Shown in pieces: positions 634-15,749 of a stretch of DNA of 44,855 bases. Source of the DNA: a virus; IMG/VR virus record IMGVR_UViG_3300033144_001638, positions 1 to 44,855 of that record. The stretch is one strand, 5' to 3'. The position numbers and the translations under genes were made by a program. The notes beneath the pieces were generated by a model, which was not told the DNA's origin, did no database searches, and saw only the letters and a program-made list of their open reading frames with translations. Within the stretch, counting starts at the first letter, position 1. Every line of letters starts with the position of its first letter.

Positions 634-650
634 ATTTATTAATTTAATTG

Positions 651-1037
651 TTAATCGCAGTTAAAGTAGTCATCATCTACCTTAGTGTTGTCTACTACAG
701 CTGCTTGTTTAATCCTGTAGATATTCTTGAAATTAAAGTCAAACTTCTCTATCGGATCGTTTTCATTAGGCATTCTAAATTCAATTTCCTTGTAGGTATA
801 TTGTTTATTGTTATATGTATTTGTAGAAGTTCTAGTATTTACAGGTCTTCTACACTTCACTGCAATATATCTAACCCTACCTTTACTCCAGTGACTACTA
901 TACTGGTGTCTCTGTGCACTAGGGCGTGGGTCTTCTACCAGCTGAAATATACACTGGTCTGCTCCTGAGTTTGTAAGTACAACATCACCCTTCTTGAGGA
1001 GCCCAAGGTCGGTGATGAGGTTCTGTTCTATATTCAT
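651..1037 (-). CDS. Hypothetical protein, 128 aa
   Basis: The ORF begins at an ATG with an A/T-rich leader and lies 11 bases after the UDG gene and 17 before the rIIA-like gene, on the same strand. The sequence is mixed polar with a basic middle (residues about 40-80) and an acidic C-terminus ending DDDYFNCD. I recognise no domain, signal peptide or membrane helix. The GDVVLTNSG stretch near residues 17-25 looks like a small beta-barrel start, but this is too little for a function. Operon position suggests a replication or host-takeover accessory role. Confidence 0.7.
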   Translation of the reverse strand: MNIEQNLITDLGLLKKGDVVLTNSGADQCIFQLVEDPRPSAQRHQYSSHWSKGRVRYIAVKCRRPVNTRTSTNTYNNKQYTYKEIEFRMPNENDPIEKFDFNFKNIYRIKQAAVVDNTKVDDDYFNCD

Positions 1038-1048
1038 AATTTTAATTG

Positions 1049-2630: not shown

Positions 2631-2854
2631 TAGTTAATACAAACTACATCACCTTCGTCTGGCTTGATATCAGCTGATTCAATAACTATGTAGTTATTAT
2701 CCAGCCCCTCACTAAGCATTATACTAGGTGTGAAATTTACTTTCTGGTAACTATTACCTTCGTCATCAGATGAATAGATTACTGTGTAGTGTTCTATCTC
2801 TGGATTACGTTTTAACATGTCCACTAATGTTTGGACGTACACTCTTAAAGTCAT
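2630..2854 (-). CDS. Hypothetical protein, 74 aa
   Basis: A small, acidic ORF starting at ATG 2854 and sharing one base with the epimerase start (TAATG type coupling). The N-terminus MTLRVYVQTLVDMLKRNPEIEHYTVIYSSDDEGNSY looks like a compact alpha/beta protein (shown in part only as description of its composition). No membrane segment, zinc motif or family that I recognise. Its tight packing between the DUF932-like gene and the epimerase supports it being a real gene. Confidence 0.7.
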   Translation of the reverse strand: MTLRVYVQTLVDMLKRNPEIEHYTVIYSSDDEGNSYQKVNFTPSIMLSEGLDNNYIVIESADIKPDEGDVVCIN

Positions 2855-2856
2855 AA

Positions 2857-3651
2857 TTATATATTTTCGTTAAACATATCTAGTTGCTGCATCTGATTAG
2901 ATTGCACCTCTAGAACCATTTTCTCATGTTCCAACTCAGCTTGTTCTGCAAAGAAGTTATGACACTTGATATGATCTCTCATCCATCTGTCTGGATGTAT
3001 CTCCTTCATTGCAAAAGTTGTATAGTTATACAGCTCCCATAATGTATTAGGTGCACCATAGTCATGTGTAGGATTATTAAACTCTCTTTGAATAATATTC
3101 AACTGAGTAGATTGTAAGAACTTCTCATGTGCAAACATGCGTCCTAACAATTCAGACCTACGCTCTTTAGATATCTCATGAGCTCTAAATGCCTCACGAT
3201 CTTGTTGCATCTTTGTAAATGCACTACCTGCTGACTTAATGTACTCTGTAATAGCTGCAGGTGCAAAGTCCTGAATAGTACCTTTATGCATACGCTTGAA
3301 TGAACCGTGATCTCCTGATACCATACCATTGCTACATACAAATACTTGTACACCTATAGCAAACTTCAGTGATGTACTCTTATCATAACTGTTCTGCCAA
3401 ACAACTTGTAGTTGCATGTCATCATCTTTTACATTTTTAATAGTGTATCTACCTGTAGCTACGTCACCATTTCTACCGGTTAGATAGTTCTCCTTATCAA
3501 TGTCAAATCCTGATTGATAAACACTTTCTAGTGTTAGATCCACCAGCTGTCTATGACTGATTGGTTTATAAGTTGTAGTCTGTGGAGGCACTTGTGCTGT
3601 TAGCATAATGTCCTTTGCTGACTTACTTGTTTTTACTGTTTCTGTATTCAT
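2857..3651 (-). CDS. DUF932-like protein with C-terminal clamp-binding motif
   Basis: The 264-aa sequence shows the general pattern of DUF932 / phage-plasmid-like proteins: a mixed alpha/beta N-terminal half with the characteristic CSNGM at residues 106-110, followed by a long helical region (about 130-250). The molecular function of DUF932 is not known; members sit in phage and plasmid replication or anti-defence neighbourhoods. At the extreme C-terminus, after a Gln-rich stretch, lies QLDMF (residues 256-260), close to the QL(S/D)LF peptide that docks on the bacterial beta sliding clamp. The gene overlaps the primase by 4 bases (ATGA), which fits a replisome-linked role. Family call is from motif recognition, not a search. 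Confidence 0.65.
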   Translation of the reverse strand: MNTETVKTSKSAKDIMLTAQVPPQTTTYKPISHRQLVDLTLESVYQSGFDIDKENYLTGRNGDVATGRYTIKNVKDDDMQLQVVWQNSYDKSTSLKFAIGVQVFVCSNGMVSGDHGSFKRMHKGTIQDFAPAAITEYIKSAGSAFTKMQQDREAFRAHEISKERRSELLGRMFAHEKFLQSTQLNIIQREFNNPTHDYGAPNTLWELYNYTTFAMKEIHPDRWMRDHIKCHNFFAEQAELEHEKMVLEVQSNQMQQLDMFNENI

Positions 3652-4655
3652 TTTATTATTGATTTATTTATTAAGTATTCTTCTATGACTTTTAATCCGT
3701 AATGTTTAGCCAAGTCTGCCCAGTCATTTATTCCTTCTTCTAGGTATTTCTTTGGTACATTACAGTAGTCAAATCCAAACTTCTCTGTAATTACTTTTGA
3801 ATTCTCTACACCAGTAGAATCTGAATCAAAAGACAAGATCTGTCTGTCTGAGTTAGCCTTGATGTATTCTACATTATCTTCATCAAAGCATCCTATCCCT
3901 TCGTTCTGCACTGCACAACATGTAGGGAAAACCTTCTTCATCACCATATAATCTTTCTTGCTCTTAGTTATAAATGCTGTATGACAATCTTTAATATCGT
4001 CTTTACCATCCATAGCTGTGATAGGAACATTATTTGGTACCCATTTGAATCTCTTCTCTGCATACGGTTTGTATATCTTCCAGTGGCCATCATATAGATA
4101 ACCAAAGGTCAACACTTTAGGATCCACTACCCATCTCTTCTTATTAAGAAATAGTTCTTGAATCGAGTATATATTGTTTGCTCTGAGATCCTCCTCATCT
4201 TGATAGTATTGATTCCAGTAAGCTAACTCCTCATGTGTAAACGGTTTAGTCTTCACTTGTATAAAGGAGTATGACTTCACAACCTTCTCAGGCTGTTTGT
4301 ATTGGGCAACCACTCTCTTATAGTCTTTAACTTTACTACCGGATATACCCAGTCCGAAATCATTATCTATTTTCTTTAGTACATCATCATAGTTACTGCA
4401 TAGATATAGCATCTTAACAAATGCAAAGCAGTCACCTTTCTTACTAGTATCACCAAAGTCATAGAATGTTACTCCTCTATGTCCCTGGCTAATAATAAAT
4501 GATGGTGTACGTTCTTCTCTAAATGGTGAATAGGTTTTGACATTCAGTTTCCAATTACTGTCTGGCATATAATACCTGAATATATCATACTCAGATATCT
4601 TATCTAGTATTGCTTGTTTATTAAGCGTTTCTTTTTTTATTCCTCCTATTGCCAT
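3648..4655 (-). CDS. DnaG-like primase (zinc-less CHC2-like domain plus Toprim)
   Basis: The N-terminal part reads YSPFREERTPSF followed by FYDFGDTSKKGD, which aligns with the CHC2 primase zinc domain (CPFHxEKTPSF ... HCFGCGxGGD), but all four zinc ligands are replaced (Ser, Arg, Asp, Asp). The C-terminal half has a Toprim-like DxD (LSFDSDSTG) and ITKSKKD where the family normally has EGxxD, so the conserved Glu appears to be Lys. The protein presumably lays RNA primers for phage replication with the DnaB-like helicase encoded upstream. I chose the ATG at 4655 (335 aa), preceded by ATAATAAAT; an 8-residue longer reading needs a GTG at 4679 inside the terminator hairpin. It overlaps the DUF932-like gene by 4 bases. 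Confidence 0.8.
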   Translation of the reverse strand: MAIGGIKKETLNKQAILDKISEYDIFRYYMPDSNWKLNVKTYSPFREERTPSFIISQGHRGVTFYDFGDTSKKGDCFAFVKMLYLCSNYDDVLKKIDNDFGLGISGSKVKDYKRVVAQYKQPEKVVKSYSFIQVKTKPFTHEELAYWNQYYQDEEDLRANNIYSIQELFLNKKRWVVDPKVLTFGYLYDGHWKIYKPYAEKRFKWVPNNVPITAMDGKDDIKDCHTAFITKSKKDYMVMKKVFPTCCAVQNEGIGCFDEDNVEYIKANSDRQILSFDSDSTGVENSKVITEKFGFDYCNVPKKYLEEGINDWADLAKHYGLKVIEEYLINKSIIK

Positions 4656-4665
4656 ATTTATTATA

Positions 4666-4694
4666 TTAAAAAGCCCCACATTTCTGCAGGGCTT
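4666..4694 (-). terminator. Intrinsic terminator between ssDNA-binding gene and primase
   Basis: On the minus strand the sequence AAGCCCTGCA, a GAAA tetraloop and TGTGGGGCTT form a 10-bp stem (two G-U pairs), followed directly by TTTTT. The T tract ends about 11 bases before the primase ATG at 4655, so the terminator lies in the primase leader. Confidence 0.8.
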
Positions 4695-4696
4695 GT

Positions 4697-4757
4697 TGTA
4701 AACTAGGGGTTGGGACTCGGTAACCCTGCACGCTTCTTTTCCACGCTTGACCCCTTA
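4697..4757 (-). other. Structured intergenic RNA segment upstream of the terminator
   Basis: Between the stop at 4761 and the terminator, the minus-strand RNA has self-complementary pieces: AGGGGT (4755-4750) with ACCCCT (4710-4705), and GGGTT with AACCC around the loop ACCGAGTCCC, plus a direct repeat AAGCGTG. The pairings are partly exclusive. It may be an attenuator leader or a small RNA; I do not recognise a riboswitch or tRNA. Confidence 0.4.
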
Positions 4758-4760
4758 TCT

Positions 4761-5636
4761 TTAATAATCGTCCCCATCCTCAGATATATAATTATCTGAA
4801 GCTACGAGATTATTTTCTGGATTGTAGTCTTCTACTTCTTTAAGTTGATAGTAGTCTTTACACCCGTACTCTCCAGTCACCTTAACCACAAATCTTTCGT
4901 GTGGTCTCAGCTCTCTAGGCTTACGTGCTTTAAGTTGGTTAACTATCTTTGGATCCGTATAGTCTACTAGTCTAAACTGACGCATAGTGTAACCAGATAA
5001 GAATGCTTTATTATATACACCCTGATACTCAACAGTTTCACCATCACGTTCTTTAGTAACAACAGTAGCTAGTGCTACGATGCTATTACACCACTCACCA
5101 TCTACCTGGTCCTTAAGATCTTTTACGTTACCACGCATAAGCTTTGTCCAATCAAGGGTTAGTGTAGTCTCTGCACTTCTATAGTCTAGTTGTCCCAGCC
5201 ATGTGCGTAAGAAATCATACAAGTCTTCCTCACCAATAAATGCAACTCTATACTCACGGTTCTCTTTGAACCAGTCAAATAGATTATTCTCATCATCAGC
5301 CCAAGAGGTCATACCTACACTGTTAAGGTATTGTTTCTTTGTACCATCTCTGTTCTCTCTTTCTCTATCTTCCAAGAAGAAAGATACTTTGAAGTTTTCT
5401 TGATTCTTTACTTCCTGCAGCCAAACATCTACACGCAAGTATGTATTACCATCTCTTGTCTCTCCTAGATAATTAGTTGCTTTGCTATCTTCACCTAGTT
5501 CTATTCCAAGTACATCCTTGTACTCTTCATTTGTAGGATTGATAGCTATTACGTTAGCCTCAAATAGACCAACTTTCTTATTGAATTTACTCTCTGTGTT
5601 TGTGGATTCTCTTTTGACTCCGCCAATTGTACTCAT
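4761..5636 (-). CDS. Putative single-stranded DNA-binding protein
   Basis: A 291-aa protein with a beta-rich core and many Tyr/Trp/Phe residues, ending in a short acidic tail (SEDGDDY). Acidic C-terminal tails are typical of bacterial and phage ssDNA-binding proteins (SSB, T4 gp32, T7 gp2.5), where they contact replication partners. The stretch around residues 45-100 (LRVDVWLQEVKNQENFKVSFF) could be an OB-type beta pattern. Its position between the Sak4-like ATPase and primase matches the ssb locus of crAss-like phages. The call rests on context, tail and composition rather than a diagnostic motif. A terminator follows its stop codon, so it may be made at a higher level than the genes after it. 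The leader AATTAATAAATATG supports the start. Confidence 0.6.
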   Translation of the reverse strand: MSTIGGVKRESTNTESKFNKKVGLFEANVIAINPTNEEYKDVLGIELGEDSKATNYLGETRDGNTYLRVDVWLQEVKNQENFKVSFFLEDRERENRDGTKKQYLNSVGMTSWADDENNLFDWFKENREYRVAFIGEEDLYDFLRTWLGQLDYRSAETTLTLDWTKLMRGNVKDLKDQVDGEWCNSIVALATVVTKERDGETVEYQGVYNKAFLSGYTMRQFRLVDYTDPKIVNQLKARKPRELRPHERFVVKVTGEYGCKDYYQLKEVEDYNPENNLVASDNYISEDGDDY

Positions 5637-5650
5637 ATTTATTAATTTAT

Positions 5651-6322
5651 TTAGTTATAATATTCGATTACTTTTTCTTTTACTAGCTGTAAGTTGTTAG
5701 GAACCTTTGTTGTATCAAACATTCCGTCTGGACTCTTCGCTGGTTTCTTCCTGTATCTGTTAGTAAGAAAGCTGTATTCAACATTACCATCCTTACCTTC
5801 TTCAACATGGGTGTACAAACATACGGTTAATAATCCTTCCAGCAAAACCTGGTTGTCAATTAATTTACCTGCTGTTTTAATTTTGTATCCAACTATCTCA
5901 CCTGCGTCTTCTATAGTCTCAGGGTGTGAGTAGTAAAATACACATAAGTCATCACGTAGACCTCTAGCTGTTCTAAACATGTCCACCATATCTTTAGCCA
6001 TTACGCTAAACTTAGTGAACCCTGTTTCAGTGGCCTTCTCTACCATTCTGAATCCCATAAGATAATTACTATCTTCAATCACAATGTTCTTTATGTGTGG
6101 GGCTTTATCAGAGATGACTTTCAAGAGTCTGGTAACTTCTACCGGATCATCTATCTCTTTGTAGTTTTTATTATCTGAGTTGTAAAGTTTACCACTACCC
6201 TTGAATGGTAGCTCTTTCTTTGCAACATTTATAATATATGTTTCTTTGGGATCTAAGTACTTTATTGCTGTTGATTTTCCTGTCCCTGTTTCACCAACAA
6301 CTCCTATTAATTTTGAACTCAT
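5651..6322 (-). CDS. RecA-fold AAA ATPase (Sak4-like phage NTP-binding protein)
   Basis: This 223-aa protein begins MSSKLIGVVGETGTGKST, a clean Walker A motif at residues 10-18, with a Walker B-like hydrophobic strand ending in acid (NIVIEDSNYL, about residues 79-88). Size and pattern match phage nucleotide-binding proteins of the AAA_24/Sak4 group, single-domain RecA-like ATPases that work with phage SSB in single-strand annealing or recombination. The neighbouring downstream gene is the candidate SSB, which fits that partnership. ATPase fold is well supported; the recombination role is inferred from the family and neighbour. The start has the usual A/T-only leader. Confidence 0.8.
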   Translation of the reverse strand: MSSKLIGVVGETGTGKSTAIKYLDPKETYIINVAKKELPFKGSGKLYNSDNKNYKEIDDPVEVTRLLKVISDKAPHIKNIVIEDSNYLMGFRMVEKATETGFTKFSVMAKDMVDMFRTARGLRDDLCVFYYSHPETIEDAGEIVGYKIKTAGKLIDNQVLLEGLLTVCLYTHVEEGKDGNVEYSFLTNRYRKKPAKSPDGMFDTTKVPNNLQLVKEKVIEYYN

Positions 6323-6344
6323 TTTTTAAAATATTTATTATTAT

Positions 6345-7448
6345 TTAGTTATTACAAATATACGAATTTTCTACGTATTTTATCTTAGTTTTGTCAAAGA
6401 ACTCTAGTGCTTTTTGCAACCATTTTAACTCAACGTCTTGATCAGATGATATGATATATATGTGTGATTTCTTATCAGGAGTATTGTACTCCATGGCCAT
6501 ACATCTATTAATCTTTTGAGCCAAGTTCTCTGCATTACTATCAAAGTAATTTATTATTACTCTGTTCAGCGGTTTATAGGTTACACCTGTGTTACCAATC
6601 TTGACAACAGCCATGTGATTACCTTCACCTTCAGCAAAACGCTGTAATGCATCCTTATCTTTTGATTTACTATGATAGGATGGGATTCCTAATGCGTCAG
6701 CTATTTTAGTTATACCACAGAATACCAGTATACGTTCCTCAGGATTGTTCCTTAGTATCTCCTTGGTCCTGTTGAGCTTAGCCACACTGTTCTGTATGAT
6801 TCTCATACGTGCTAGTCTATGAAACATAGTGTTAGCCCCGGTGTACATTATCTTATTAATCTGGCCACTCAAGAACTTGAACTGTTGTAGCTCCGTCTTC
6901 TTGATATTCTTCTTGGTATATGTTTGTATCACCTGATTATCTAGTGGTACTTGTAGCACTGTTATCTCATAGTCTGCTATAACTCCTTCTTCAATAGCTT
7001 TCTGTATTGGATAAGAAGCTATAACCTCTATGCCCAGTTCATCTCTAAGATCTCTCCTGGTCCACTTAGATAGTGTACCTGTTAGACCTAGAACATACAC
7101 GTTAACATCAAACAGCTCACTACATACATCTCGCTGTGCAGGTGATAGTAAATGTATCTCATCAATAATTACTATATCAAATACATCTATGTGCTTGCTT
7201 AACGATCTGTGTGTAGTGTATGTAATGTTATCGTTCTTGTATCCCATCAACTCAAACTCATCCATCCAAGACTGTTTTATCTTGTTATCTGGATAGGCTA
7301 TCAGTATATGTGGATTATCAAACTTATTAAGTATGTTGATAGTGGTTCTAATCTTACCAAACCTAGGGCATAGATTTAGAATCCCAAACCTACCGTGGTT
7401 TAGCCATACATCAGCAAACTCTTGTTGTCTTTTATCTCTTAGTGTCAT
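6345..7448 (-). CDS. SF2 (DEAD/SNF2-like) helicase, compact
   Basis: The 367-aa protein carries superfamily 2 motifs: a P-loop region LNLCPRFGKIRTT (residues about 24-36) with the Lys but without the usual GK(S/T), motif II DEIH (VIIDEIHLL), motif III-like GLTGT, and motif VI-like QKINRCMAME near residue 312. These are two RecA-like lobes without extra domains, as in small phage helicases such as T4 UvsW and the SNF2-type helicases of crAss-like phages. Likely roles are branch migration, fork remodelling or recombination-dependent replication. It overlaps the DnaB gene by 4 bases (ATGA). The P-loop Ile in place of Ser/Thr is odd and could lower activity. Confidence 0.85.
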   Translation of the reverse strand: MTLRDKRQQEFADVWLNHGRFGILNLCPRFGKIRTTINILNKFDNPHILIAYPDNKIKQSWMDEFELMGYKNDNITYTTHRSLSKHIDVFDIVIIDEIHLLSPAQRDVCSELFDVNVYVLGLTGTLSKWTRRDLRDELGIEVIASYPIQKAIEEGVIADYEITVLQVPLDNQVIQTYTKKNIKKTELQQFKFLSGQINKIMYTGANTMFHRLARMRIIQNSVAKLNRTKEILRNNPEERILVFCGITKIADALGIPSYHSKSKDKDALQRFAEGEGNHMAVVKIGNTGVTYKPLNRVIINYFDSNAENLAQKINRCMAMEYNTPDKKSHIYIISSDQDVELKWLQKALEFFDKTKIKYVENSYICNN

Positions 7449-8509
7449 GATAGAAAAAATGATTTATTAATTACAGACTGATAGTCTGCCTCTGTTATAT
7501 CCATACGTCTGGGTAGTTCCTTGAACATACCAATCTGGCCTAGGAAACCAAGACCAATCCTGATATCATCCTCACCATAGCTGTTCTTAATTACACGCAG
7601 GCTTCTGAAGTACTTACCACCAAAGTCATCCTTTAGTTTATTAAGGTCATAACCTGATGGATCTGCAACCTTGTATCTCATAGGGTCAAACAGGGCCATG
7701 CATATATCTGAGTCATTCTGTGTAGTAGAACTATCAGCAAAGTCTTCCATCTGTGGCTCAACATCACCATTCTTTATCCTGATAGGATTAGATATGGACC
7801 GGTTGAACTGACTAACAACAACTGGTGAGTACCCATAGAAGTCACGAGCGTATCTAAGCTCATCACTCATCTTGTCAATAGCCTCTTTCTTAGTGGGCTG
7901 TGCACTTGTAGTCTTAAGTAAGCCTATATGATCCAACACAACAAGTGTTATCTCATTAGGATTCTTAGGTATGTATCTCTTGTTATACTGGTCCACCTGT
8001 ATTATCTCACCACGTTCAAGTGCATAAGCCTTGAGATCTTTAGCAATACCTACTGGGTTCTCAGGCCCATCTATAATGGTGACTATCTCCATAAGTTTAT
8101 TCATGTAGTCTTCGTACATAAGAAACAAGTCATGCTCATCCTTAGTCATCTTACTAGTCCAACCTAGTAGTTTGTTGACTGGAATGATTACACCCTGGTC
8201 TATGAATATCTTTCTACATGTCCACTTGGCTAGCTTGTAAGTCTGACTACGCTCCATAGATCTATACCATACCTTCACCTTGATACCAGACTGTCGTCCT
8301 TCTTGTGATAGAGCCCAGTCTACTGGGTTAAGCACGAACGCATCATCAATGAAGCTAGTCTTACCTGAACCAGTTAGGCCACCAATTAAATAGTACATAG
8401 ACCTACGAATACCAACATACCTATTTAGTCTGTCAAATCCCATAGGTATACCACCATTTCTACCAGCTAGACCTTTGTCTACCTCTTCTTTCAATAGTTT
8501 AAATCCCAT
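7445..8509 (-). CDS. DnaB-like replicative DNA helicase
   Basis: A 354-aa hexameric-helicase-type RecA domain. Walker A GGLTGSGKTS is at residues 43-52, the Walker B strand reads LVVLDHIGLL, and the helicase motif around SQFNRS follows, as in DnaB and T7 gp4 C-terminal domains. The family's N-terminal primase-binding domain is absent or reduced to about 30 residues, so this is a core helicase, with the primase on a separate gene. It should unwind the fork 5' to 3' around the lagging strand. The start at 8509 is overlapped by the end of a 47-aa ORF, and the stop overlaps the SF2 helicase start, so expression is probably translationally coupled. Confidence 0.9.
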   Translation of the reverse strand: MGFKLLKEEVDKGLAGRNGGIPMGFDRLNRYVGIRRSMYYLIGGLTGSGKTSFIDDAFVLNPVDWALSQEGRQSGIKVKVWYRSMERSQTYKLAKWTCRKIFIDQGVIIPVNKLLGWTSKMTKDEHDLFLMYEDYMNKLMEIVTIIDGPENPVGIAKDLKAYALERGEIIQVDQYNKRYIPKNPNEITLVVLDHIGLLKTTSAQPTKKEAIDKMSDELRYARDFYGYSPVVVSQFNRSISNPIRIKNGDVEPQMEDFADSSTTQNDSDICMALFDPMRYKVADPSGYDLNKLKDDFGGKYFRSLRVIKNSYGEDDIRIGLGFLGQIGMFKELPRRMDITEADYQSVINKSFFLS

Positions 8510-8642
8510 TTCTTTTCTTATTTATTTCTTTCTTTATCTCCAGTTTGTTATACATCTTCTTCCAATATATATGTCTTACGGCTTCTCCCAACTCAAAGTT
8601 GTTAGGATACTTTTTTACTAATTTCTTTAATGGTATTTTCAT
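8499..8642 (-). CDS. Small basic protein, 47 aa
   Basis: An ATG at 8642 opens 47 codons ending TAA at 8499, inside the first codons of the DnaB gene in another frame (11-base overlap). The product starts MKIPLKKLVKKYPNNFELG and is rich in Lys, with a predicted helical C-terminal half. It fills the gap between two coupled genes exactly, which is why I accept it. No family recognised; a nucleic acid or helicase-loading accessory role is only a guess from charge and place. Confidence 0.6.
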   Translation of the reverse strand: MKIPLKKLVKKYPNNFELGEAVRHIYWKKMYNKLEIKKEINKKRNGI

Positions 8643-8644
8643 AA

Positions 8645-9274
8645 TTATATATCTGTTGACCCAGTTGGTTCTGCAGGTCCAGCATTGTCACCCTCTTGCT
8701 CTATCAACTCTATAAATGCTTCATAGGTGCGTTGATTCAAGTAGGTTAGGCTGTTCTGCATATACGTGAGTCTGTTAGTACCTCTTCTCATTGACTCGAG
8801 TACCTTCTGTTCTATCTCAAACTTCAGTGCTCCAATCAGTTGCTGTGCAGTGTAATCTCCTTCGTTGAGTATTGCATCAAACTTGATCTTACATGCTTGC
8901 TTGTCTTTACGTAATGCTCTAGTACCACGAAACTTCTTACCGTTGTAAGAGAATGTATCAGTACCAGGGTATGTCTTCCACCATTCTTCGAACAGTGTAG
9001 CATGGGGCTTTCGTTTTACAAATTTCTTCTGAGTTTTATCCTCACCTACAAATGCTAGTAGGTCTTTTCCTGTAGTAGTTAATCGGTTTTCATCTTCAGC
9101 TATTAGGCCCTTTCTTCTCAGTGACTGATAGATGGCAGAGATACGCATACTATTCTCATAGAGAGGTTCTACGTCATACTCTGCCTCAATCAACTTAAGT
9201 AAATAGATTATATCTAAGCTATAGCTTTTCTTGATGAGCTCTTCGAACTGCTGTGGAGTTATGTGTAGCTTCAT
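8645..9274 (-). CDS. Putative winged-helix replication accessory protein
   Basis: The 209-aa product has an N-terminal region (residues about 12-75) that reads like a winged helix: several helices, then RISAIYQSLRRKGLIAEDE and the wing NRLTTTGKDLLAF. The middle part (FEEWWKTYPGTDTF ... ALRKDKQACKIKFDAI) resembles the C-terminal domains of phage replisome organiser or helicase-loader-like proteins, with a WWKTYP motif seen in such proteins. The last 20 residues are acidic and Gly/Pro-rich. It lies directly upstream of the 47-aa ORF and DnaB, so an origin-binding or helicase-loading job is plausible but not shown by a diagnostic motif. Confidence 0.55.
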   Translation of the reverse strand: MKLHITPQQFEELIKKSYSLDIIYLLKLIEAEYDVEPLYENSMRISAIYQSLRRKGLIAEDENRLTTTGKDLLAFVGEDKTQKKFVKRKPHATLFEEWWKTYPGTDTFSYNGKKFRGTRALRKDKQACKIKFDAILNEGDYTAQQLIGALKFEIEQKVLESMRRGTNRLTYMQNSLTYLNQRTYEAFIELIEQEGDNAGPAEPTGSTDI

Positions 9275-9431
9275 CTTTTTTCTGTTTTATAACTTTAATA
9301 GTTGCAGGCTTCTGTGCCTGTTCTCTTTCCCACTCTTCCCATTCTAGTTTCATTAAGTGGTCTCTCTCGGCAGCATAGAGCTGGTCATTAGCCAGCTCAT
9401 GATGCTCCCAATCCTGTTCAACAAAGCTCAT
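9219..9431 (-). CDS. Small charged protein, 70 aa
   Basis: An ORF from ATG 9431 whose start shares one base with the end of the AT-hook gene and whose last 56 bases overlap the start of the 209-aa gene. The product is Glu/Trp/Gln-rich in its first half and Lys/Arg-rich in its second half, likely helical. Nothing in it identifies a function. The contiguous packing supports it; the sizeable overlap lowers confidence that the whole frame is used, although the alternative is a shorter downstream protein start. Confidence 0.55.
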   Translation of the reverse strand: MSFVEQDWEHHELANDQLYAAERDHLMKLEWEEWEREQAQKPATIKVIKQKKDEATHNSTAVRRAHQEKL

Positions 9432-9745
9432 TACTTTACTTTGTTCTTGGATCCTTTAGGTCTACCTCTACCACGCTTTGGTTTACTAACCGTTATTGTG
9501 GCCTTTGGTTTATTCTTAGAACCCTTGGGTCTACCTCTTTTCTTAGGTGCTTTACCACCCACCCATGCTTCATTTACATTAGGTGTAGACTTATCATCAG
9601 CCATGAGTTGCCCTTTTTTATTACGTGCTCTCTTAGGCTTTGATTCAGATTCTTCAAACTTATTAGCTGGTACTCTCCATACCGCTAGAAAGAAGATAGT
9701 TGCTACTGCAATTACTATAATTGCTTGTGTCATTGTAATGTCCAT
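9431..9745 (-). CDS. Membrane-anchored protein with two AT-hook motifs
   Basis: The 104-aa protein has an N-terminal hydrophobic helix (residues about 6-24, ending before W23-R24) and then a strongly basic tail. The tail contains two AT-hooks: KKRGRPKGSKNK at 68-79 and RGRGRPKGSKNK at 91-102. AT-hooks bind the minor groove of AT-rich DNA. The positive tail predicts it faces the cytoplasm (positive-inside rule), so the protein could tether the phage's AT-rich DNA to the inner membrane. It sits between PolB and DnaB, suggesting a role in organising replication, similar in concept to phi29 p16.7. The start has the leader CAATAAATATG. Confidence 0.8.
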   Translation of the reverse strand: MDITMTQAIIVIAVATIFFLAVWRVPANKFEESESKPKRARNKKGQLMADDKSTPNVNEAWVGGKAPKKRGRPKGSKNKPKATITVSKPKRGRGRPKGSKNKVK

Positions 9746-9771
9746 ATTTATTGATTTTAATTGATTAATAT

Positions 9772-10035
9772 TTAATTTTTAATTCTAAGTCCGAACTGTT
9801 CATTGAACCATTCAAGACATGATTTGGCCTTCGTGGTGTTAAACTTGAAGACTTTCTTCATTGTCCTGATAGCATATCGATTGAACTCAATACGCTGTTC
9901 ACTTGTCATAGTCCAGTTGAAGTACCACTTGTCATCATCAAGAGTATCAACCAATCGTTTACCGACCATATCTAGTTGATACTCAATAAGATGCCTCATG
10001 ATATTTCCTCTATTTACTGGTGCTTTCTTTTTCAT
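9772..10035 (-). CDS. Hypothetical protein, 87 aa
   Basis: It starts by ATGA overlap with the PolB stop, so it is translationally coupled to the polymerase. The product is basic and looks mainly helical, rich in aromatic residues, with the segment WYFNWTMTSEQRIEFNRYA in the middle and a C-terminal FNEQFGLRIKN. I recognise no family. Coupling to polymerase suggests a replication accessory protein, with no direct evidence for it. Confidence 0.65.
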   Translation of the reverse strand: MKKKAPVNRGNIMRHLIEYQLDMVGKRLVDTLDDDKWYFNWTMTSEQRIEFNRYAIRTMKKVFKFNTTKAKSCLEWFNEQFGLRIKN

Positions 10036-11951
10036 GAAAATAAATCTAATTGATTAGGAGATACTTTTGTTTTTATTCTTTTCCCTCCGCTTTGTATTTT
10101 ACTTATCATTCTTTCAGCTTTGTGTATGTAGTATGTATAGTTTACATTACCTAGATCTGTATTATCAGGTAGATAATTACAAACCGTACACACCCAATCA
10201 CCAGCTTCTGCTTGAGAACGCTTAACAGCCTTACTTGTTGACTCTTGCTTACGTACCTTGAATATCTTTTCACCAGTCTTAGACACATAATATCTAATCA
10301 GCTTATTATACTCAGTACGTTCAGATGAAGTAGTGTGAATTCCCTCAAAGTAGAAGTCTTTAGAAGCCTTCTTTCTGATACAAAAGTCAAACAAGTTAGT
10401 GTGTTGTTTGATAGTTTCTCTTACAGGTATACCATTTACATAGTATTGTTCAAGAGCAAGAGGTACTATCCTAGCAGATTTGTTCTTGTGCAGTTCAAAG
10501 TCTGTTAGGAAGTCCCCCTTCTTCTTGATATAGCCATCTGGTGTGATAGCTATGTAATCATTAACTGTGGAGAATATGATCTTTTGATAGTCCGTACGCT
10601 CCAGGATGTATTGTGTAGTTTCTTCCCACTGCTTATTAATATCATGCATCAAAGATATCAGGTCTTGTATGCCATTAAGTTCGTACTGTTCTATAAGCAT
10701 CATCAAGCTCAACTCACCAGTTATGGTGGTGAACATAGTCAGTTGCCTATCGTAGATCCATGATAGCATGTCAGATGACTTACCGTATACAGAGTTAACT
10801 GCAAGTTTAAGTGCACCAATAATACCCTTAGTTTTAGCATCCTTTGCCCCACTCTGTTTAAGCTGTAATCTTTTCTCGTACATCTCTCGATATCCGTGTA
10901 AGAATTGCCTCCCCAAATGTGCAGGATACTGTGCATTGTTAATAATAATAGCAGGATAGTAACTAGCTACATCCCAATCAATGATTTCAAACTCCTCGTT
11001 GGCCTCAAAGACAGTTGGTTTATTCTCGGTGTGCAAGCCACCACGCATGAAGCTATACCTCATGCCATAGAAATCTATGTGTTCTTTGAAGTCATCTTGG
11101 AGTCCAAGTGTTAGTCCTCTAATATTGCTGAGGAACGATTGCAACTGTTCTGTTTCGAACTTCACGTAATGTGCAATACAGTTCTTTAGTGCGATACTCT
11201 TTCTGAAGTAGCCCTTACGTGGGAGCTCTTTAATGTCAATATTCTTTTCATGACAATAATACTTCTTAATTATCTCATCCCCAATCTTACTATCTGAATA
11301 GTTCAGACACGGTATGCCAAACTCATCTTGTATGTCAAGTCTTAGCTGTATCTGATCATTCCCTTTGTAAAGAGGATGTTCTGTATCACCTATTGTAACC
11401 TTGTAGAACTCGTAGGTTGCATCCACATCATTAAAACAGTACTGCAAGGTCTGAAATACTTCATCTCTTGTCATACCAGTCTTACTGTGATGTATAGGCA
11501 TCTCTTCAATGTTCTCAAGATCCATCTCAAACTCTAGTCTTTTCAGACTAACACGCCTGTTCTTGTTATCATAATTATGTATCTTAAACAGGTCTAGCTG
11601 CTGTAATGACAGTTCCCACTCACGATACTCCGGAAACACGTCATAATTTGCATCATGTATTACATCAGCAGCTTTTTGTGCAATCTTAGCACAGATCTCT
11701 AGTCCAGTTAGGTCATGCCAGTATTCGTAGTTTCTGAGTATCCATTCTACTACCTGAGCATCGAAACGTAAGTTATTATAGCCTACCCAATGAGCATTCT
11801 TATGTATATCTGTGTACTTGACAAAAGCATCTAGTTGGTTCTGCCATTTACTAATGGTAAAACTTTTAGGTGTTTTGTTGGGTTCCATGCACACAACTAT
11901 GAAACACTCCTGCATAGTTTCTATATCGTATATAATTACGTTCTCAATCAT
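10032..11951 (-). CDS. Family B DNA polymerase with 3'-5' exonuclease and clamp-binding tail
   Basis: The 639-aa protein has exonuclease motifs ExoI YDIET (residues 8-12), ExoII GYNNLRFDAQ (about 57-66) and ExoIII YCFNDVDATYEFY (about 176). Polymerase motifs are A: DWDVASYYP with catalytic Asp327; B: AVNSVYGKSSD; and C: STVNDYIAI with Asp465. Motif C lacks the first Asp of the usual DTDS but keeps the one that binds metal. The last residues are NQLDLFS, with QLDLF (634-638) matching the beta-clamp docking peptide, so the host clamp is probably recruited for processivity. It overlaps the upstream 65-aa gene by 8 bases and the 87-aa gene by 4. A consensus promoter lies at 12163-12194. Confidence 0.92.
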   Translation of the reverse strand: MIENVIIYDIETMQECFIVVCMEPNKTPKSFTISKWQNQLDAFVKYTDIHKNAHWVGYNNLRFDAQVVEWILRNYEYWHDLTGLEICAKIAQKAADVIHDANYDVFPEYREWELSLQQLDLFKIHNYDNKNRRVSLKRLEFEMDLENIEEMPIHHSKTGMTRDEVFQTLQYCFNDVDATYEFYKVTIGDTEHPLYKGNDQIQLRLDIQDEFGIPCLNYSDSKIGDEIIKKYYCHEKNIDIKELPRKGYFRKSIALKNCIAHYVKFETEQLQSFLSNIRGLTLGLQDDFKEHIDFYGMRYSFMRGGLHTENKPTVFEANEEFEIIDWDVASYYPAIIINNAQYPAHLGRQFLHGYREMYEKRLQLKQSGAKDAKTKGIIGALKLAVNSVYGKSSDMLSWIYDRQLTMFTTITGELSLMMLIEQYELNGIQDLISLMHDINKQWEETTQYILERTDYQKIIFSTVNDYIAITPDGYIKKKGDFLTDFELHKNKSARIVPLALEQYYVNGIPVRETIKQHTNLFDFCIRKKASKDFYFEGIHTTSSERTEYNKLIRYYVSKTGEKIFKVRKQESTSKAVKRSQAEAGDWVCTVCNYLPDNTDLGNVNYTYYIHKAERMISKIQSGGKRIKTKVSPNQLDLFS

Positions 11952-12141
11952 CCTTAACTTTTTTATAATCTAAATAATCTAAATAAAATCCAATACCTAC
12001 TACTACATGTAGACCTACACTAGCTAATATCTCGTATAGGTCATGCCATGTATGTATAGATAAATGTATATGGCCTACTATCCAAAAAGGGATAGCAAGC
12101 TGTTGACTAATCCATCTAATTAGAAAGGTTATGAATTTCAT
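11944..12141 (-). CDS. Small membrane protein, 65 aa
   Basis: The product MKFITFLIRWISQQLAIPF... has two hydrophobic segments (residues about 3-22 and 40-56) separated by a His-rich loop and ends in a charged tail KKVKDD. I start it at the ATG at 12141; a longer frame would need TTG at 12165, which falls within the promoter's -7 element. It is the first gene after the minus-strand promoter and overlaps the PolB start by 8 bases. Function unknown; a membrane link for the replisome is possible given the other membrane protein in the same operon. Confidence 0.65.
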   Translation of the reverse strand: MKFITFLIRWISQQLAIPFWIVGHIHLSIHTWHDLYEILASVGLHVVVGIGFYLDYLDYKKVKDD

Positions 12142-12162
12142 AAAATACTTGTGATTGCACAA

Positions 12163-12194
12163 CAAAAATAATGAATTTAATTACTATTACCAAA
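12163..12194 (-). promoter_or_regulatory. Bacteroidetes-type promoter for the PolB operon
   Basis: Read on the minus strand: TTTG (12194-12191), a 20-base spacer, TATTTTTG (12170-12163). This matches the Bacteroidetes sigma factor consensus TTTG / TAnnTTTG. Transcription would begin around 12156, giving a leader of about 15 bases before the ATG at 12141. The -33 box overlaps the end of the 191-aa gene. Confidence 0.75.
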
Positions 12195-12762
12195 TAGTAA
12201 AACCACCACAATCGTATAAAAAGTCTATAAAATTATCTACATGTCTTTTGCTACAGCTGTGTGATGGATAATATCTTGTAGTTCCTTGGTCTGCAAGCAT
12301 TATACCTGTGAATGTAACTTTACCTAGTGGTAACTCTTCATTCAATTTATCTCGTAGGTCCTCGGGTATAAACTCTCCTGCTTGGTTAGTCCATGAGCCC
12401 ATGTTAACGTAAAGTTCATCATCATCATCTTCAAACCCACCATCTGTTTGCAGTATATCTTTGAGTGCTTCTGCTAGTGCAGTGCATTGTTCTTGATCAT
12501 CTAAGCCTTTACCATCATTAGAGCCCCAATACTTGAAGTCTATGTCTAAGTCATGCTTCTCAGCTGCTATCTCACATAGCATTTGTATTGGTCTCCAACC
12601 CCACCAGTTACTTCTGAAATAGTAACCAGGATTAGTTTGCTCAAACTCATCTAGTAGTTTGAAGAATTCATCTCTTGCTTCTTCTGAATGCTTTATGCTC
12701 CAGTCTATCTCAGGCTTTACGCCTATCCACTTATCTTTTTTACCGTATATATCTACTCCCAT
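12187..12762 (-). CDS. Conserved phage protein of unknown function, 191 aa
   Basis: The protein opens MGVDIYGKK and has YYFRSNWWGWRPIQML near residues 47-62, a pattern I recognise from a widespread phage protein family of unknown function (M-G-D-YG ... FRxNxWxWRPL). The middle is acidic (FEDDDDELY) and the end has a Cys/His-bearing stretch (SHSCSKRH). No catalytic site can be assigned. Leader AATTAAATAGATATG supports the start. A promoter for the next operon lies over its 3' end, so it is the last gene of the small-gene unit. Confidence 0.75.
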   Translation of the reverse strand: MGVDIYGKKDKWIGVKPEIDWSIKHSEEARDEFFKLLDEFEQTNPGYYFRSNWWGWRPIQMLCEIAAEKHDLDIDFKYWGSNDGKGLDDQEQCTALAEALKDILQTDGGFEDDDDELYVNMGSWTNQAGEFIPEDLRDKLNEELPLGKVTFTGIMLADQGTTRYYPSHSCSKRHVDNFIDFLYDCGGFTIW

Positions 12763-12764
12763 AT

Positions 12765-12917
12765 CTATTTAATTTTAGCAAACAGAGAGACAAACTTGTA
12801 GACTTCATAACTTAGAAGAAGTTCTCCTGTTTTTTGGTCTTCCCATTGACCACCTGCTACCTTCTTCACATGATTACCAGTCCATCTGCTTCTCATCTGT
12901 GTATTTGTTAATTCCAT
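12765..12917 (-). CDS. Small hypothetical protein, 50 aa
   Basis: An ATG at 12917 with an AAATTAAATAAAATG leader opens 50 codons ending TAG at 12765, two bases before the next gene's start. The product contains SRWTGNHVKKVAGGQWED and a Leu/Phe/Lys C-terminus. It has the look of a short beta-hairpin protein. No family recognised. Spacing, start context and strand make it a likely gene. Confidence 0.6.
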   Translation of the reverse strand: MELTNTQMRSRWTGNHVKKVAGGQWEDQKTGELLLSYEVYKFVSLFAKIK

Positions 12918-12918
12918 T

Positions 12919-13038
12919 TTATTTAATTTTCTTGTATGCAGCTAACATTTGCTCTTTATCATATACATGCTTGTTTTGAATCTTAAGCATCCATTTCAAA
13001 AAAGCAAATTGTCTGTCTGCTTGATTTAACTTTCTCAT
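12919..13038 (-). CDS. Small basic protein, 39 aa
   Basis: The ORF starts by ATGA overlap with the zinc-ribbon gene stop and ends one base before the 50-aa gene. The product (MRKLNQADRQFAFLKWMLK...) is helical and Lys-rich. No function can be assigned; packing between coupled genes is the evidence. Confidence 0.55.
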   Translation of the reverse strand: MRKLNQADRQFAFLKWMLKIQNKHVYDKEQMLAAYKKIK

Positions 13039-13271
13039 CTTTTTCTTGATATTTCAAAATCCCAGTCATAATCAGGTTCAGACATAGCATCAAGAGTTTC
13101 ATTCATCTCTTGTTGTTGTGTCTTTTTCCTGACTCTAACTATATTTGGTCTCTTTATCTGAATTACTAGTGTCTTCTGTCCACAATAAAAGCATTCAGTC
13201 TCTTCTTCGTTACTTGTGTAAGTTGCGTCACACGAGTTACAAAGATAGTCGTAAAATGTTTCTTCACTCAT
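13035..13271 (-). CDS. Zinc-ribbon protein, 78 aa
   Basis: Two Cys pairs, CNSC at residues 11-14 and CFYC at 27-30, form a classic zinc ribbon in the N-terminal 35 residues. A basic segment (KRPNIVRVRKK) and an acidic C-terminus follow. Such small ribbons often bind nucleic acid or RNA polymerase; no specific family is evident. It is followed by an ATGA-coupled 39-aa gene. Confidence 0.7.
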   Translation of the reverse strand: MSEETFYDYLCNSCDATYTSNEEETECFYCGQKTLVIQIKRPNIVRVRKKTQQQEMNETLDAMSEPDYDWDFEISRKR

Positions 13272-13282
13272 AGTTTTTAGTT

Positions 13283-13738
13283 TTACTCTAGCTCATCATC
13301 ATCCTCATCTGGTGATAAGCCTCTAATTACAACCTTCTCATCAACATAGTCTGGTTGTATAAAATTCTCTTCTTCATACTCTTCTGGATCGATTAGTATC
13401 TCACAGAGCCCATCAAAGTCTCGCATGATAATATTCATCTCCTTGTAAGTAAAAGGTTGATATTCGTCTTCATAATGAGGATGGTCAAACTGACCAATCT
13501 CCTCTGGAAAAGCTATGATATGACCTTCATCATCTAAAATGTGTGGTTGAACCGGATAGCCAAAGCTTTCTGGTATAATCATTTTCTTCTCCCATAGTTC
13601 TAGTGCTACAGATCCTAAGGGAAACACTTCAACGTGTTCTTTATCTGTACCACCATAGTGTACATTCATAAATAGTGTATCCTTGGTGAACGTATCAGGT
13701 TCATAGTGATGGAACACTAGTTCAACTGCTAACCACAT
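13283..13738 (-). CDS. Acidic hypothetical protein, 151 aa
   Basis: The product is strongly acidic throughout, especially its last 40 residues (DPEEYEEENF ... SPDEDDDELE). It starts at an ATG lying 10 bases inside the end of the 63-aa zinc-ribbon gene. No membrane segment or motif was seen. Acidic phage early proteins sometimes act as DNA mimics that block host nucleases or restriction; here that is only a composition-based possibility. Confidence 0.65.
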   Translation of the reverse strand: MWLAVELVFHHYEPDTFTKDTLFMNVHYGGTDKEHVEVFPLGSVALELWEKKMIIPESFGYPVQPHILDDEGHIIAFPEEIGQFDHPHYEDEYQPFTYKEMNIIMRDFDGLCEILIDPEEYEEENFIQPDYVDEKVVIRGLSPDEDDDELE

Positions 13739-13920
13739 GATTCCTGTGGTGGTTGATAAGGCTTGTATGTTACTGTCATACCATTTACAGTGAATTCTTC
13801 ACTACAATGGTTGCACTTGCCTTCTCTTGTACCATAATCTACCAGTATTGCTCCCTTAAAGCAAGCTGGACACATGATGTATGGTTGTTTGTTACTTGTC
13901 ATTTGTGTATTGTAATCCAT
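13729..13920 (-). CDS. Zinc-ribbon protein, 63 aa
   Basis: Cys pairs CPAC (residues 17-20) and CNHC (36-39) frame a short rubredoxin-like zinc ribbon, followed by a Pro/Tyr-rich tail ending PPQESCG. Start ATG 13920 has an A/T-rich leader (ACTAAATATTATG). It overlaps the next gene by 10 bases. It is the second zinc ribbon in this unit; function unknown. Confidence 0.65.
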   Translation of the reverse strand: MDYNTQMTSNKQPYIMCPACFKGAILVDYGTREGKCNHCSEEFTVNGMTVTYKPYQPPQESCG

Positions 13921-13944
13921 AATATTTAGTTTTAGTTAGAGTTA

Positions 13945-13977
13945 GAGGGTATCCGAGTCCTGAATTCTTCAACCCTC
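13945..13977. other. Inverted repeat in the gap between 14001 and 13920
   Basis: GAGGGT (13945-13950) and ACCCTC (13972-13977) can pair around a 21-base loop that contains CCGAGTCC. There is no T tract, so it is not a typical terminator. The CCGAGTCC core also occurs, on the opposite strand, in the 4697-4757 element. Confidence 0.35.
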
Positions 13978-14000
13978 CTCCTCACTGATTAAACTACTAA

Positions 14001-14237
14001 TCAAAACTCTTTCGAGTGGTGTGCATCATCTAAGTACTCCAAAGATAATAATTCTAAATCTTCTATTTGATCTTCTGATAGTAGTTCCACTATATCTATA
14101 GTCTCAACAAATACCTTGTCTATTTCAAATTGTGATGGTGAACCTGGATAGTCATATGTTTGTGCTTCCGCTGGTTCGTATGTTCCTTCACAGTCTACAT
14201 AGATTCCACAGTATTTGACTTGTATTGTCTTTTTCAT
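14001..14237 (-). CDS. Acidic hypothetical protein, 78 aa
   Basis: I start it at the ATG at 14237, which overlaps the upstream stop as ATGA; the nine residues upstream belong to the other gene's 3' end. The product (MKKTIQVKYCGIYVDCEGTYE...) has a beta-rich N-terminus with two Cys and a Glu/Asp/Leu-rich C-terminus. No family recognised. Confidence 0.6.
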   Translation of the reverse strand: MKKTIQVKYCGIYVDCEGTYEPAEAQTYDYPGSPSQFEIDKVFVETIDIVELLSEDQIEDLELLSLEYLDDAHHSKEF

Positions 14238-14581
14238 TCTAGGTATATTATTACATTTTCCCATTTACCACCACGTCTAGACTCATTTACTAAGAAGTCT
14301 ATCCTGTGTGTCCATCTCTTGTTCATTCTGTCTTGCACTGTCCAATAACCATTCATTGGTCCTGCATTCTCTACACATACTCGTGCACCAAATACAAATC
14401 CCAACTCTTCTAAGTCTCTTGACACTGCAATCCATCTATGTCCACCAGGATTATCTTTATCGATAACTCTGTTAGATGCTGTGATGAATGGTGTGCTATC
14501 TGTCTGTGCTGGCACTGCATGATAAATCGTAGCTGTAACCGACACTCTAGCTGCTAGTAGTATTGTTAATATTAATTTCAT
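14234..14581 (-). CDS. Secreted 3D / double-psi-beta-barrel protein, 115 aa
   Basis: The ATG at 14581 gives a short signal peptide (MKLILTILLAARVSVTA) and a mature domain of about 95 residues. The domain shows the 3D pattern: an early Tyr/Ala strand, GARVCVE (65-71), then GYWTVQDRMNKRW with DRM at 84-86 and RIDF at 93-96, as in MltA/RlpA/YabE-type double-psi barrels where conserved Asp residues act in cell-wall cleavage or binding. Export to the periplasm and peptidoglycan action are likely, so this is a candidate lysis or entry-exclusion protein. There are small membrane-protein genes just upstream. An upstream frame to 14695 is open but has no good start context. Confidence 0.7.
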   Translation of the reverse strand: MKLILTILLAARVSVTATIYHAVPAQTDSTPFITASNRVIDKDNPGGHRWIAVSRDLEELGFVFGARVCVENAGPMNGYWTVQDRMNKRWTHRIDFLVNESRRGGKWENVIIYLE

Positions 14582-14697
14582 ATTCCGATTTTTTTTGTGT
14601 GATAAGCCAAGAATGCAAGAGCAATGTCTTAAGCTTCTCTTGCACTCTTCCAGCGAGTAAGGGATTCTAGTTACCCTAAGTTTATGTATACCCAAAC
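14582..14697 (-). other. Structured leader of the 3D-domain gene
   Basis: This 116-base gap has no gene. On the minus strand it holds three hairpins in a row: AAGTTT/AAACTT at about 14697-14676, AGGG/CCCT around 14673-14656, and TGCAAGAG/CTCTTGCA (14642-14611) with an 8-bp perfect stem. No T tract follows. It may control translation or RNA stability of the secreted protein. Confidence 0.4.
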
Positions 14698-14826
14698 TTA
14701 ACTGGTAGTTTTCTTGTTTTGTTTTTTACTCTTTTGTTTGCTTACCTCACGTGATTGTTTCCTGGCCTTGCGTAATACTCTATAAGCACTGAGTATCTGC
14801 TTGCCTTCATTAAGCCAATGTTTCAT
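14698..14826 (-). CDS. Small highly basic protein, 42 aa
   Basis: ATG at 14826 opens 42 codons ending TAA. The product starts MKHWLNEGKQILSAYRVLRK and its last 25 residues are almost all Lys, Arg, Gln and Ser. It could bind nucleic acid or the inner face of the membrane. Two bases separate it from the preceding gene's stop, supporting a real operon member. Confidence 0.55.
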   Translation of the reverse strand: MKHWLNEGKQILSAYRVLRKARKQSREVSKQKSKKQNKKTTS

Positions 14827-14828
14827 AA

Positions 14829-14978
14829 TCAATAGCCTAATTGTTCTAGTTCATCAGAGTCTGCTTCAACAGTGTACTCTGTATTCTGTATACTGCACAT
14901 AAAGAACATACCAGCTGCTAATGCTGCTAGTCTGAACTTATAAAATGCTGTAGGTAGTAGTTTAATCTTGCGTTTCAT
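14829..14978 (-). CDS. Small single-pass membrane or secreted protein, 49 aa
   Basis: The product has a basic N-terminus (MKRKIK), a hydrophobic segment at residues about 12-29 (AFYKFRLAALAAGMFFMC) and an acidic C-terminus (EADSDELEQLGY). That is a signal-anchor layout with the acidic tail outside. It starts by ATGA overlap with the 46-aa membrane gene. A lysis accessory role (antiholin or spanin-like) is possible; nothing confirms it. Confidence 0.6.
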   Translation of the reverse strand: MKRKIKLLPTAFYKFRLAALAAGMFFMCSIQNTEYTVEADSDELEQLGY

Positions 14979-15115
14979 AATGTTATCATATTTGTTATTA
15001 GTATAAAGAGGAAAGTAACTATCAAACCTATATAAGAGATAGTAAGACAGATCATAGTAGACTTGTACTGTGCTTCTGACCTTCCTTGCCTGTATTGTTC
15101 ATCTTGTGGTGTCAT
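14975..15115 (-). CDS. Small membrane protein, 46 aa (holin candidate)
   Basis: The first 19 residues are polar and charged (MTPQDEQYRQGRSEAQYKS) and the rest (20-46) is one long hydrophobic helix with the C-terminus NMITL. Single-helix phage proteins of this size include holins and antiholins. It is the first gene of a coupled run of small genes leading to the secreted 3D-domain protein. Start ATG 15115 has A/T-rich upstream sequence. Confidence 0.6.
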   Translation of the reverse strand: MTPQDEQYRQGRSEAQYKSTMICLTISYIGLIVTFLFILITNMITL

Positions 15116-15350
15116 AATGCTATATATATTTATTTATGATGTCTAATATATAAAGTGGGAAAAAGTGGGAGAAACCGTACACTGTGCACACTACTGTTTT
15201 CGTTTACACGTAAAACATGTAGAACTTTGCAGTTATCTGTGCTATTCTAGTCCATTCTGTTCTTTTAAGGCCCAACCCTAACTCTTCCCACCCTATATAT
15301 AAAGAACTAAGAGCAGGATTGCTCCCACTCGTAGTCCTTAGTAGTTGCTA
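15116..15350 (-). other. Gene-free gap with terminator-like hairpin
   Basis: These 235 bases contain no credible ORF. At 15306-15342 the minus strand can form a nested hairpin: ACTAAG/CTTAGT outside and GAGCA/TGCTC inside, followed by TTCTTTATATATA, a plausible terminator for the 132-aa gene. The rest has a tandem AAAGTGGGA repeat near 15155-15175 and a GTGCAC palindrome, but no TTTG/TAnnTTTG promoter that I can see. Confidence 0.5.
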
Positions 15351-15749
15351 TTAGAAAGCAACTAACTCATCAGTGTTGATTACTGCTGGCTGATACTCAG
15401 TAGCACCTTCATTAGCAAAGGTGATAAGAGTTCCTTGACCGGCTGGCATTCCTATCATAGGATATTCTTCGCCTGTTGTTGAATTGATTTGCTTGTAGAC
15501 TGTGAAGCCAAACAAGTTACTAACAGTAATGTCTTTGGCTCTAACGCCTTCACTAACTCGTGATGAACAAGTGATGGCTGTTGAGGTACCGTCTTCTCTT
15601 TTAAGAACAACGACAACTCTTTTATCACTATTAGTTAAGTTAGATGGAATTAGACTAAGACTACCATTAGGGCCACACAATTCTGCAACCATTCCGATTT
15701 CTTCTCTTTCTGCTGGAACAAAAGTGTTCCAATTTAGTAATGCACTCAT
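15351..15749 (-). CDS. Hypothetical protein, first gene of the leftward region, 132 aa
   Basis: The product is beta-rich with few charged clusters: MSALLNWNTFVPAERE, then VVVVLKREDGTSTAITCSS and a final TDELVAF. No signal peptide, membrane helix or recognised domain. The leader GTCAAATAAAATG fits the start pattern of this genome. It faces the control region and is followed by a terminator-like hairpin, so it could be a strongly expressed early protein, possibly an independent transcript. Function unknown. Confidence 0.7.
   Translation of the reverse strand: MSALLNWNTFVPAEREEIGMVAELCGPNGSLSLIPSNLTNSDKRVVVVLKREDGTSTAITCSSRVSEGVRAKDITVSNLFGFTVYKQINSTTGEEYPMIGMPAGQGTLITFANEGATEYQPAVINTDELVAF

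Follow-up and report, generated by a model that had tools for sequence, protein, structure and literature searches.

A candidate membrane-anchored AT-hook protein encoded next to the DNA polymerase of a crAss-like phage

The window, by which we mean the whole 44,855-nucleotide stretch of viral DNA analysed here, has a G+C content of 36% and carries primase-like and DnaB-like genes. Strand usage and GC skew switch at approximately 15.8-16.1 kb, dividing a minus-strand replication arm (1-15749) from a plus-strand structural arm (16137-44855). Terminase, portal and major head protein genes follow one another in order on the plus-strand arm, and TerL matches those of crAss-like phages, the nearest being that of Leptolyngbya phage Lbo-JY46 (39.8%). 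Given that this gene content, namely the crAss-like order of terminase, portal and capsid genes, fits Crassvirales, we accepted the phage as crAss-like. By eye, uracil-DNA-glycosylase-like and NAD-dependent epimerase-like proteins were also recognised on the minus strand, at 1049-1771 and 1758-2630, respectively.

The gene under study belongs to a tightly packed minus-strand cluster in which a family B-type DNA polymerase (PolB) gene is followed by an 87-aa gene, the AT-hook gene, a 70-aa gene, a 209-aa gene and a DnaB-like helicase gene (Table 1). The PolB and 87-aa genes overlap in the sequence ATGA, and the stop codon of the AT-hook gene overlaps the next start codon in TAATG; these overlaps make co-translation likely. 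Beside the AT-hook gene, a lysis gene was not recognised.

Table 1. Positions of the AT-hook gene, its parts and the neighbouring genes in the window
Feature	Position	Strand	Evidence or remark
Family B-type phage DNA polymerase (PolB), upstream in the cluster	10032..11951	-	phrog_1252, E 1.7e-125
87-aa protein, adjoins PolB in most relatives	9772..10035	-	ATG overlaps the PolB stop
Putative membrane-anchored AT-hook protein, whole gene	9431..9745	-	Purifying selection in orthologues; syntenic in 57/79 PolB relatives
Predicted N-terminal membrane helix, residues 5-23	9677..9733	-	AlphaFold; hydrophobic stretch position-conserved in the alignment
NEAW peptide, K38-W61, KRARNKKGQLMADDKSTPNVNEAW	9563..9634	-	14/57 syntenic orthologues and many unrelated phage proteins
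AT-hook 1, RGRPKGSKNK, residues 70-79	9509..9538	-	GRP 71-73 invariant in 40/40 aligned orthologues
AT-hook 2, RGRPKGSKNK, residues 93-102	9440..9469	-	Aligned to the second hook of HMG-I/Y, PDB 2ezd/2eze
70-aa 'DWEH' protein	9219..9431	-	Its start codon shares TAATG with the stop of the AT-hook gene
209-aa protein, weakly matching replication initiation proteins	8645..9274	-	phrog_270, E 0.015, not significant
DnaB-like replicative helicase	7445..8509	-	PF03796, E 6.4e-14; phrog_19, E 2e-15

The AT-hook ORF starts with ATG and encodes a product of 104 aa, for which no family was found in Pfam, PHROGs or NCBIfam. The dN/dS ratio was approximately 0.1-0.2 in close orthologue pairs (for example, 0.05/0.56 for L003-L214 and 0.05/0.28 for L210-L211), indicating that the ORF is a real gene. 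Note that distant pairs were excluded from this calculation because of their high level of synonymous change. AlphaFold, run with an alignment of 40 sequences, returned one helix at residues 5-23 (block pLDDT 81 and 90) and modelled all other residues as coil; with a mean pLDDT of 66 and a pTM of 0.22, the fold is readable for the helix alone. The predicted layout is thus a hydrophobic N-terminal helix, a disordered basic tail and two AT-hooks. The original prediction, made from the letters of the sequence, had described one N-terminal membrane helix, with which the modelled helix agrees, and two hooks, which are present, but it had overlooked the segment at residues 38-61 that is described below.

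The two hooks are identical RGRPKGSKNK decamers, and their GRP cores lie exactly where they had been placed, at residues 71-73 and 94-96. Their codons are identical at 25 of 30 bases and differ at five, indicating that the decamers are not a fresh exact duplication. RGRP occurs in one of the 134 reading frames of at least 60 aa in the window, which is the 104-aa ORF itself, and shuffling of the tail residues produced one RGRP in 0.6% of cases and two in none of 200,000. The basic-flanked RGRP/GRP core typical of AT-hook proteins (Pfam PF02178), which read short AT tracts, is found twice in the protein. The Pfam AT_hook model gave no match to the window protein up to an E-value of 1, below its gathering threshold, and weak matches in 7 of 40 relatives (best E 0.042). 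The best sequence match in PDB was to the second hook of HMG-I/Y (2ezd/2eze), aligning PKRPRGRPKGSKNK with the hook decamer included. Its E-value of 0.078 is weak because the match is short, and the match draws its weight from its identical core and not from the E-value. Across the 40 aligned orthologues the GRP was constant in every one, and the spacer and adjacent basic residues varied. Although both of the hooks first noted are present in the window protein, most relatives have one; the constant part of the family is the helix plus one C-terminal hook, and the second hook is not universal.

The orientation of the protein was predicted from charge. In 60 syntenic relatives, the net charge ranged from -2 to +1 in the N-terminal flank and from +5 to +23 over the whole tail, and by the positive-inside rule the tail is predicted to be cytoplasmic, on the inner side where it had originally been expected. 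In many of these relatives, the 15-residue stretch that follows the helix is acidic, which weakens the charge argument, so that a C-in topology is suggested with moderate strength.

We next describe how widely the gene is conserved. All of the following frequencies refer to the 80 best viral contigs in IMG/VR obtained with PolB as the query (PolB 66-91% identical), of which one was too short, leaving 79 assessable. Downstream of PolB, the contigs were filtered for ORFs of 50-130 aa whose N-terminus includes a hydrophobic stretch and whose tail is basic. Among these best PolB relatives, a gene encoding a helix with at least one GRP hook lay by PolB in 57 of 79, that is, in the place where the original prediction had proposed looking for it, and three further relatives had a helix and basic tail without GRP. 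No helix-plus-basic-tail gene was found by the filter in the other 19 of the 79, a number that is an upper limit for absence because two filter-negative contigs (L252 and L271) still gave a weak whole-contig match. Given these 19 relatives lacking the gene by the filter, the helix-and-hook protein is not essential for the replication system. The gene usually starts 264-304 bases past the PolB stop, after the 87-aa gene; the distance from this stop is approximately 1,056 bases in L256 and L257, about 800 bases further downstream than usual. In L222, L223, L233, L237, L238 and L240-L243, no helix-and-hook gene separates the 87-aa and DWEH genes, and other small ORFs occupy the site in L240 and L241.

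The order of helix and C-terminal hook was unchanged even in a distant clade, whose spacer is rich in KYYKKRNKKKK and whose hook reads KRPVGRPRK. In addition, 20 relative contigs, between 17 and 117 kb long and mostly 70-117 kb, were searched as a whole; a match was found in 15, single in 14, and one contig had a second helix-and-hook match (E 0.6). A tblastn search of cultured phages with a relative lacking the NEAW peptide gave no match, a result to be read with the note that low-complexity masking could hide hook-only relatives. Likewise, no convincing hook or NEAW protein was found by regular expression in Lbo-JY46, the closest phage by terminase.

The overlooked segment at residues 38-61 lies between the helix and the hooks, and follows the pattern [KVE]RAR[ND]xxGx[YFL]xxDD[PK]STPxxNEA[WYF], referred to here as the NEAW peptide. 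It is present in 14 of the 57 helix-and-hook orthologues among the best 80 PolB relatives and missing from the other 43. The first matches outside the family were in Roseobacter phage CRP-603, and further matches were found in other Roseobacter phages, in Synechococcus phages S-CBWM1 and Syn5, in Vibrio Schitoviridae and in many viral contigs; the phages bearing it are unrelated and mostly marine. The NEAW loci include that of the window (9563-9634), L001, L084-L203 and L204-L207. From 130 distinct NEAW proteins, 124 ungapped cores were obtained, in which one G position was conserved in 124 of 124, and DD and R in 122 each. The columns D, TP, NEA and the aromatic residue were partly imposed by the search pattern, and thus prove nothing alone.

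The N-terminal parts of the NEAW carriers are mutually unrelated, and the carriers include membrane helices with AT-hooks, short helices with a basic tail and small beta-type domains. When the gene upstream of the carrier was assigned with PHROGs in 10 cases selected for their length, it encoded the major head protein in eight, and thymidylate synthase and Hsp20 in the other two. Other carriers adjoin DNA polymerase, primase-helicase or endonuclease genes, and in Syn5 (EF372997.1; L204:4953-5198) an unannotated 81-aa NEAW ORF lies between the portal and scaffold genes. Exactly one NEAW copy each was detected at E 0.1 in 20 of 20 phage contigs with different carrier types, which had been picked for having the peptide, and among the 20 relative contigs three had it, again one each. 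An exception to the single copy is a 106-aa protein (L090:5069-5389) in which a complete NEAW peptide precedes a second, degenerate one, with an AT-hook at the C-terminus.

In L010, L013, L015, L016, L021, L029 and L044, a short W/F-rich N-terminus is followed by the NEAW peptide and an RGRGRPKGSKNK hook; in L016 an Hsp20 gene precedes the gene of this carrier. Such N-termini are a possible second solution for membrane attachment. We do not claim them as amphipathic membrane helices, given that single-sequence shuffles were mostly non-significant (median p 0.20) and that relatedness among the sequences invalidates a pooled p-value.

In 84,980 prokaryote genomes, 11 NEAW loci were found, all on uncultured or metagenome-binned contigs and plausibly of phage origin, making host mimicry an unlikely source of the peptide. 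Pfam and PHROGs had no model for the NEAW carriers tested, and a literature search with the letters of the peptide yielded nothing relevant (unrelated work on cancer immunotherapy was set aside). The NEAW peptide is an apparently undescribed signature common to many phages of different groups, which matters separately from the function of the 104-aa protein. The single copy per genome in varied carriers leads to a testable prediction, a specific binding partner. A tentative extension, which we ourselves rate as rather doubtful, is that the peptide is a phage-specific, once-per-genome docking module that moves among unrelated small carriers and binds one conserved host or phage target, here giving a DNA tether extra grip. 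Since most helix-and-hook relatives are without it, NEAW is not needed for tethering, and it may add a partner to the tether.

The analysis establishes the ORF and its conservation, the prediction of a single helix and a disordered tail, the sequences of the hooks and the cluster in which the gene lies; we infer membrane insertion, the topology, DNA binding and a role in replication. The protein is best read as a small membrane-anchored tether that would hold replicating phage DNA at the inner membrane, the most parsimonious reading and one to which we assign an about even chance of being right. The N-terminal helix would cross the inner membrane with the N-terminus outside, and the disordered basic tail would face the cytoplasm, where one or two HMGA-type AT-hooks would enter the minor groove at short AT tracts, with no strict sequence requirement. 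Produced together with PolB and DnaB, the tether would keep replicating phage DNA bound to the membrane, many copies allowing many weak DNA contacts to sum, and in this lineage a further partner may dock on the NEAW peptide that lies between helix and hooks. Joining membrane to DNA would be the constant function, given that helix and hook are kept as the spacer and NEAW come and go. In terms of sequence evidence, the family probably provides a DNA-to-membrane tie during infection in crAss-like aquatic phages. The membrane tether originally proposed thus fits the architecture, the charge topology, the PolB-DnaB cluster and the wide conservation; however, this does not point to the phage's own DNA rather than the host nucleoid, because AT tracts are everywhere in a genome of 36% G+C and would be so in a similar host.

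Which DNA is held bears on a different reading, in which the anchor and hooks grab the host nucleoid, so that it is pulled to the membrane and loosened or silenced, or division is blocked in a Noc-like manner, the phage benefiting indirectly. There are precedents for its parts: Noc influences division through membrane attachment of chromosomal DNA (PMC4331003), and T4 MotB binds both host and phage DNA without sequence specificity, is toxic on expression and raises burst size (PMC6070864). AT-hooks cannot tell phage from host DNA if both are AT-rich, and some relatives lack the gene, as would be expected of an accessory takeover gene; these two points make host DNA a possible tethered DNA. On the other hand, takeover genes usually sit in variable early regions, whereas this gene occupies a nearly constant position inside the PolB-DnaB cluster, a location that favours phage DNA, and we consider host takeover unlikely.

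The hooks might also be hooks in appearance, reflecting a basic composition rich in proline and glycine, and the ligand might be RNA, ribosomes, an acidic lipid or a protein partner. The product would then be a small regulator in the membrane, acting for instance on lysis timing or superinfection exclusion. Among phage lysis and exclusion proteins, short products with one helix and a basic tail are common, the Pfam AT_hook score is sub-threshold, and the three relatives with helix and basic tail without GRP would suit such a role. Against this, the GRP core is exact in all 40 relatives while the basic residues beside it vary, it occurs far above shuffled expectation, and a lysis gene was not recognised alongside; a non-DNA ligand is, in our estimate, distinctly unlikely. 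The placement of NEAW carriers suggests yet another role, in which DNA held at the membrane and a capsid or packaging partner docked on NEAW would let DNA and proheads meet. In other phages the carrier gene often comes directly after the major capsid gene, and that of Syn5 lies between portal and scaffold, but carriers elsewhere also adjoin DNA polymerase, primase-helicase and endonuclease genes, the gene here is in the replication arm and not in the structural arm, and 43 of the 57 helix-and-hook relatives do without NEAW. A role in assembly or packaging is highly improbable.

The idea that replicating phage DNA is attached to the membrane is long-standing, and to our knowledge few protein tethers have been defined, of which p16.7 and p1 of phi29 are best known. 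If the tether reading of the 104-aa protein is true, it would describe a minimal tether of about 60-110 residues, a helix plus an AT-hook, conserved over many crAss-like aquatic phages. No paper on an AT-hook membrane tether of phages was found in the open-access literature, in line with the earlier statement that none had been described in crAss-like phages.

Known systems offer several comparisons. The predicted N-terminal helix (residues 5-23) resembles p16.7 of phi29, which has an N-terminal membrane helix; p16.7 however continues into a folded dimeric DNA-binding domain with solved structures and binds terminal protein and single-stranded DNA in a protein-primed system. In contrast, the tail of the 104-aa protein is predicted to be disordered and carries AT-hooks, and its phage has a primase and a DnaB helicase; the primase-like and DnaB-like genes argue against protein-primed replication. 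A p16.7-like folded domain was not seen, the tail being modelled as coil, with no p16.7 chain matching in PDB and no Pfam or PHROG family. With HMGA1 (HMG-I/Y), the protein shares the RGRPKGSKNK decamer of the DNA-bound second-hook structures 2ezd/2eze, but HMGA proteins are soluble eukaryotic chromatin proteins without a membrane helix, and the resemblance is most likely convergent and limited to the short hook. T4 MotB, which is likewise small and encoded by a phage, binds DNA without sequence specificity and improves phage yield; it is not reported to be a membrane protein, and the abstract on it mentions no AT-hooks (PMC6070864). Noc of Bacillus subtilis combines an N-terminal membrane-binding element with a DNA-binding part and brings DNA to the membrane (PMC4331003). 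Unlike the 104-aa protein, it uses a weak amphipathic helix and a CTP-controlled ParB-type specific DNA-binding domain; no ParB/Noc domain was found in the 104-aa protein with Pfam and NCBIfam, and homology to Noc was not seen. The p16.7 and p1 proteins are small phage membrane proteins proposed as anchors of replicating phage DNA (PMC4974454). Thus, p16.7, p1 and Noc are functional parallels of the 104-aa protein and not its relatives, and they show that small or helix-tipped proteins do attach DNA to the membrane.
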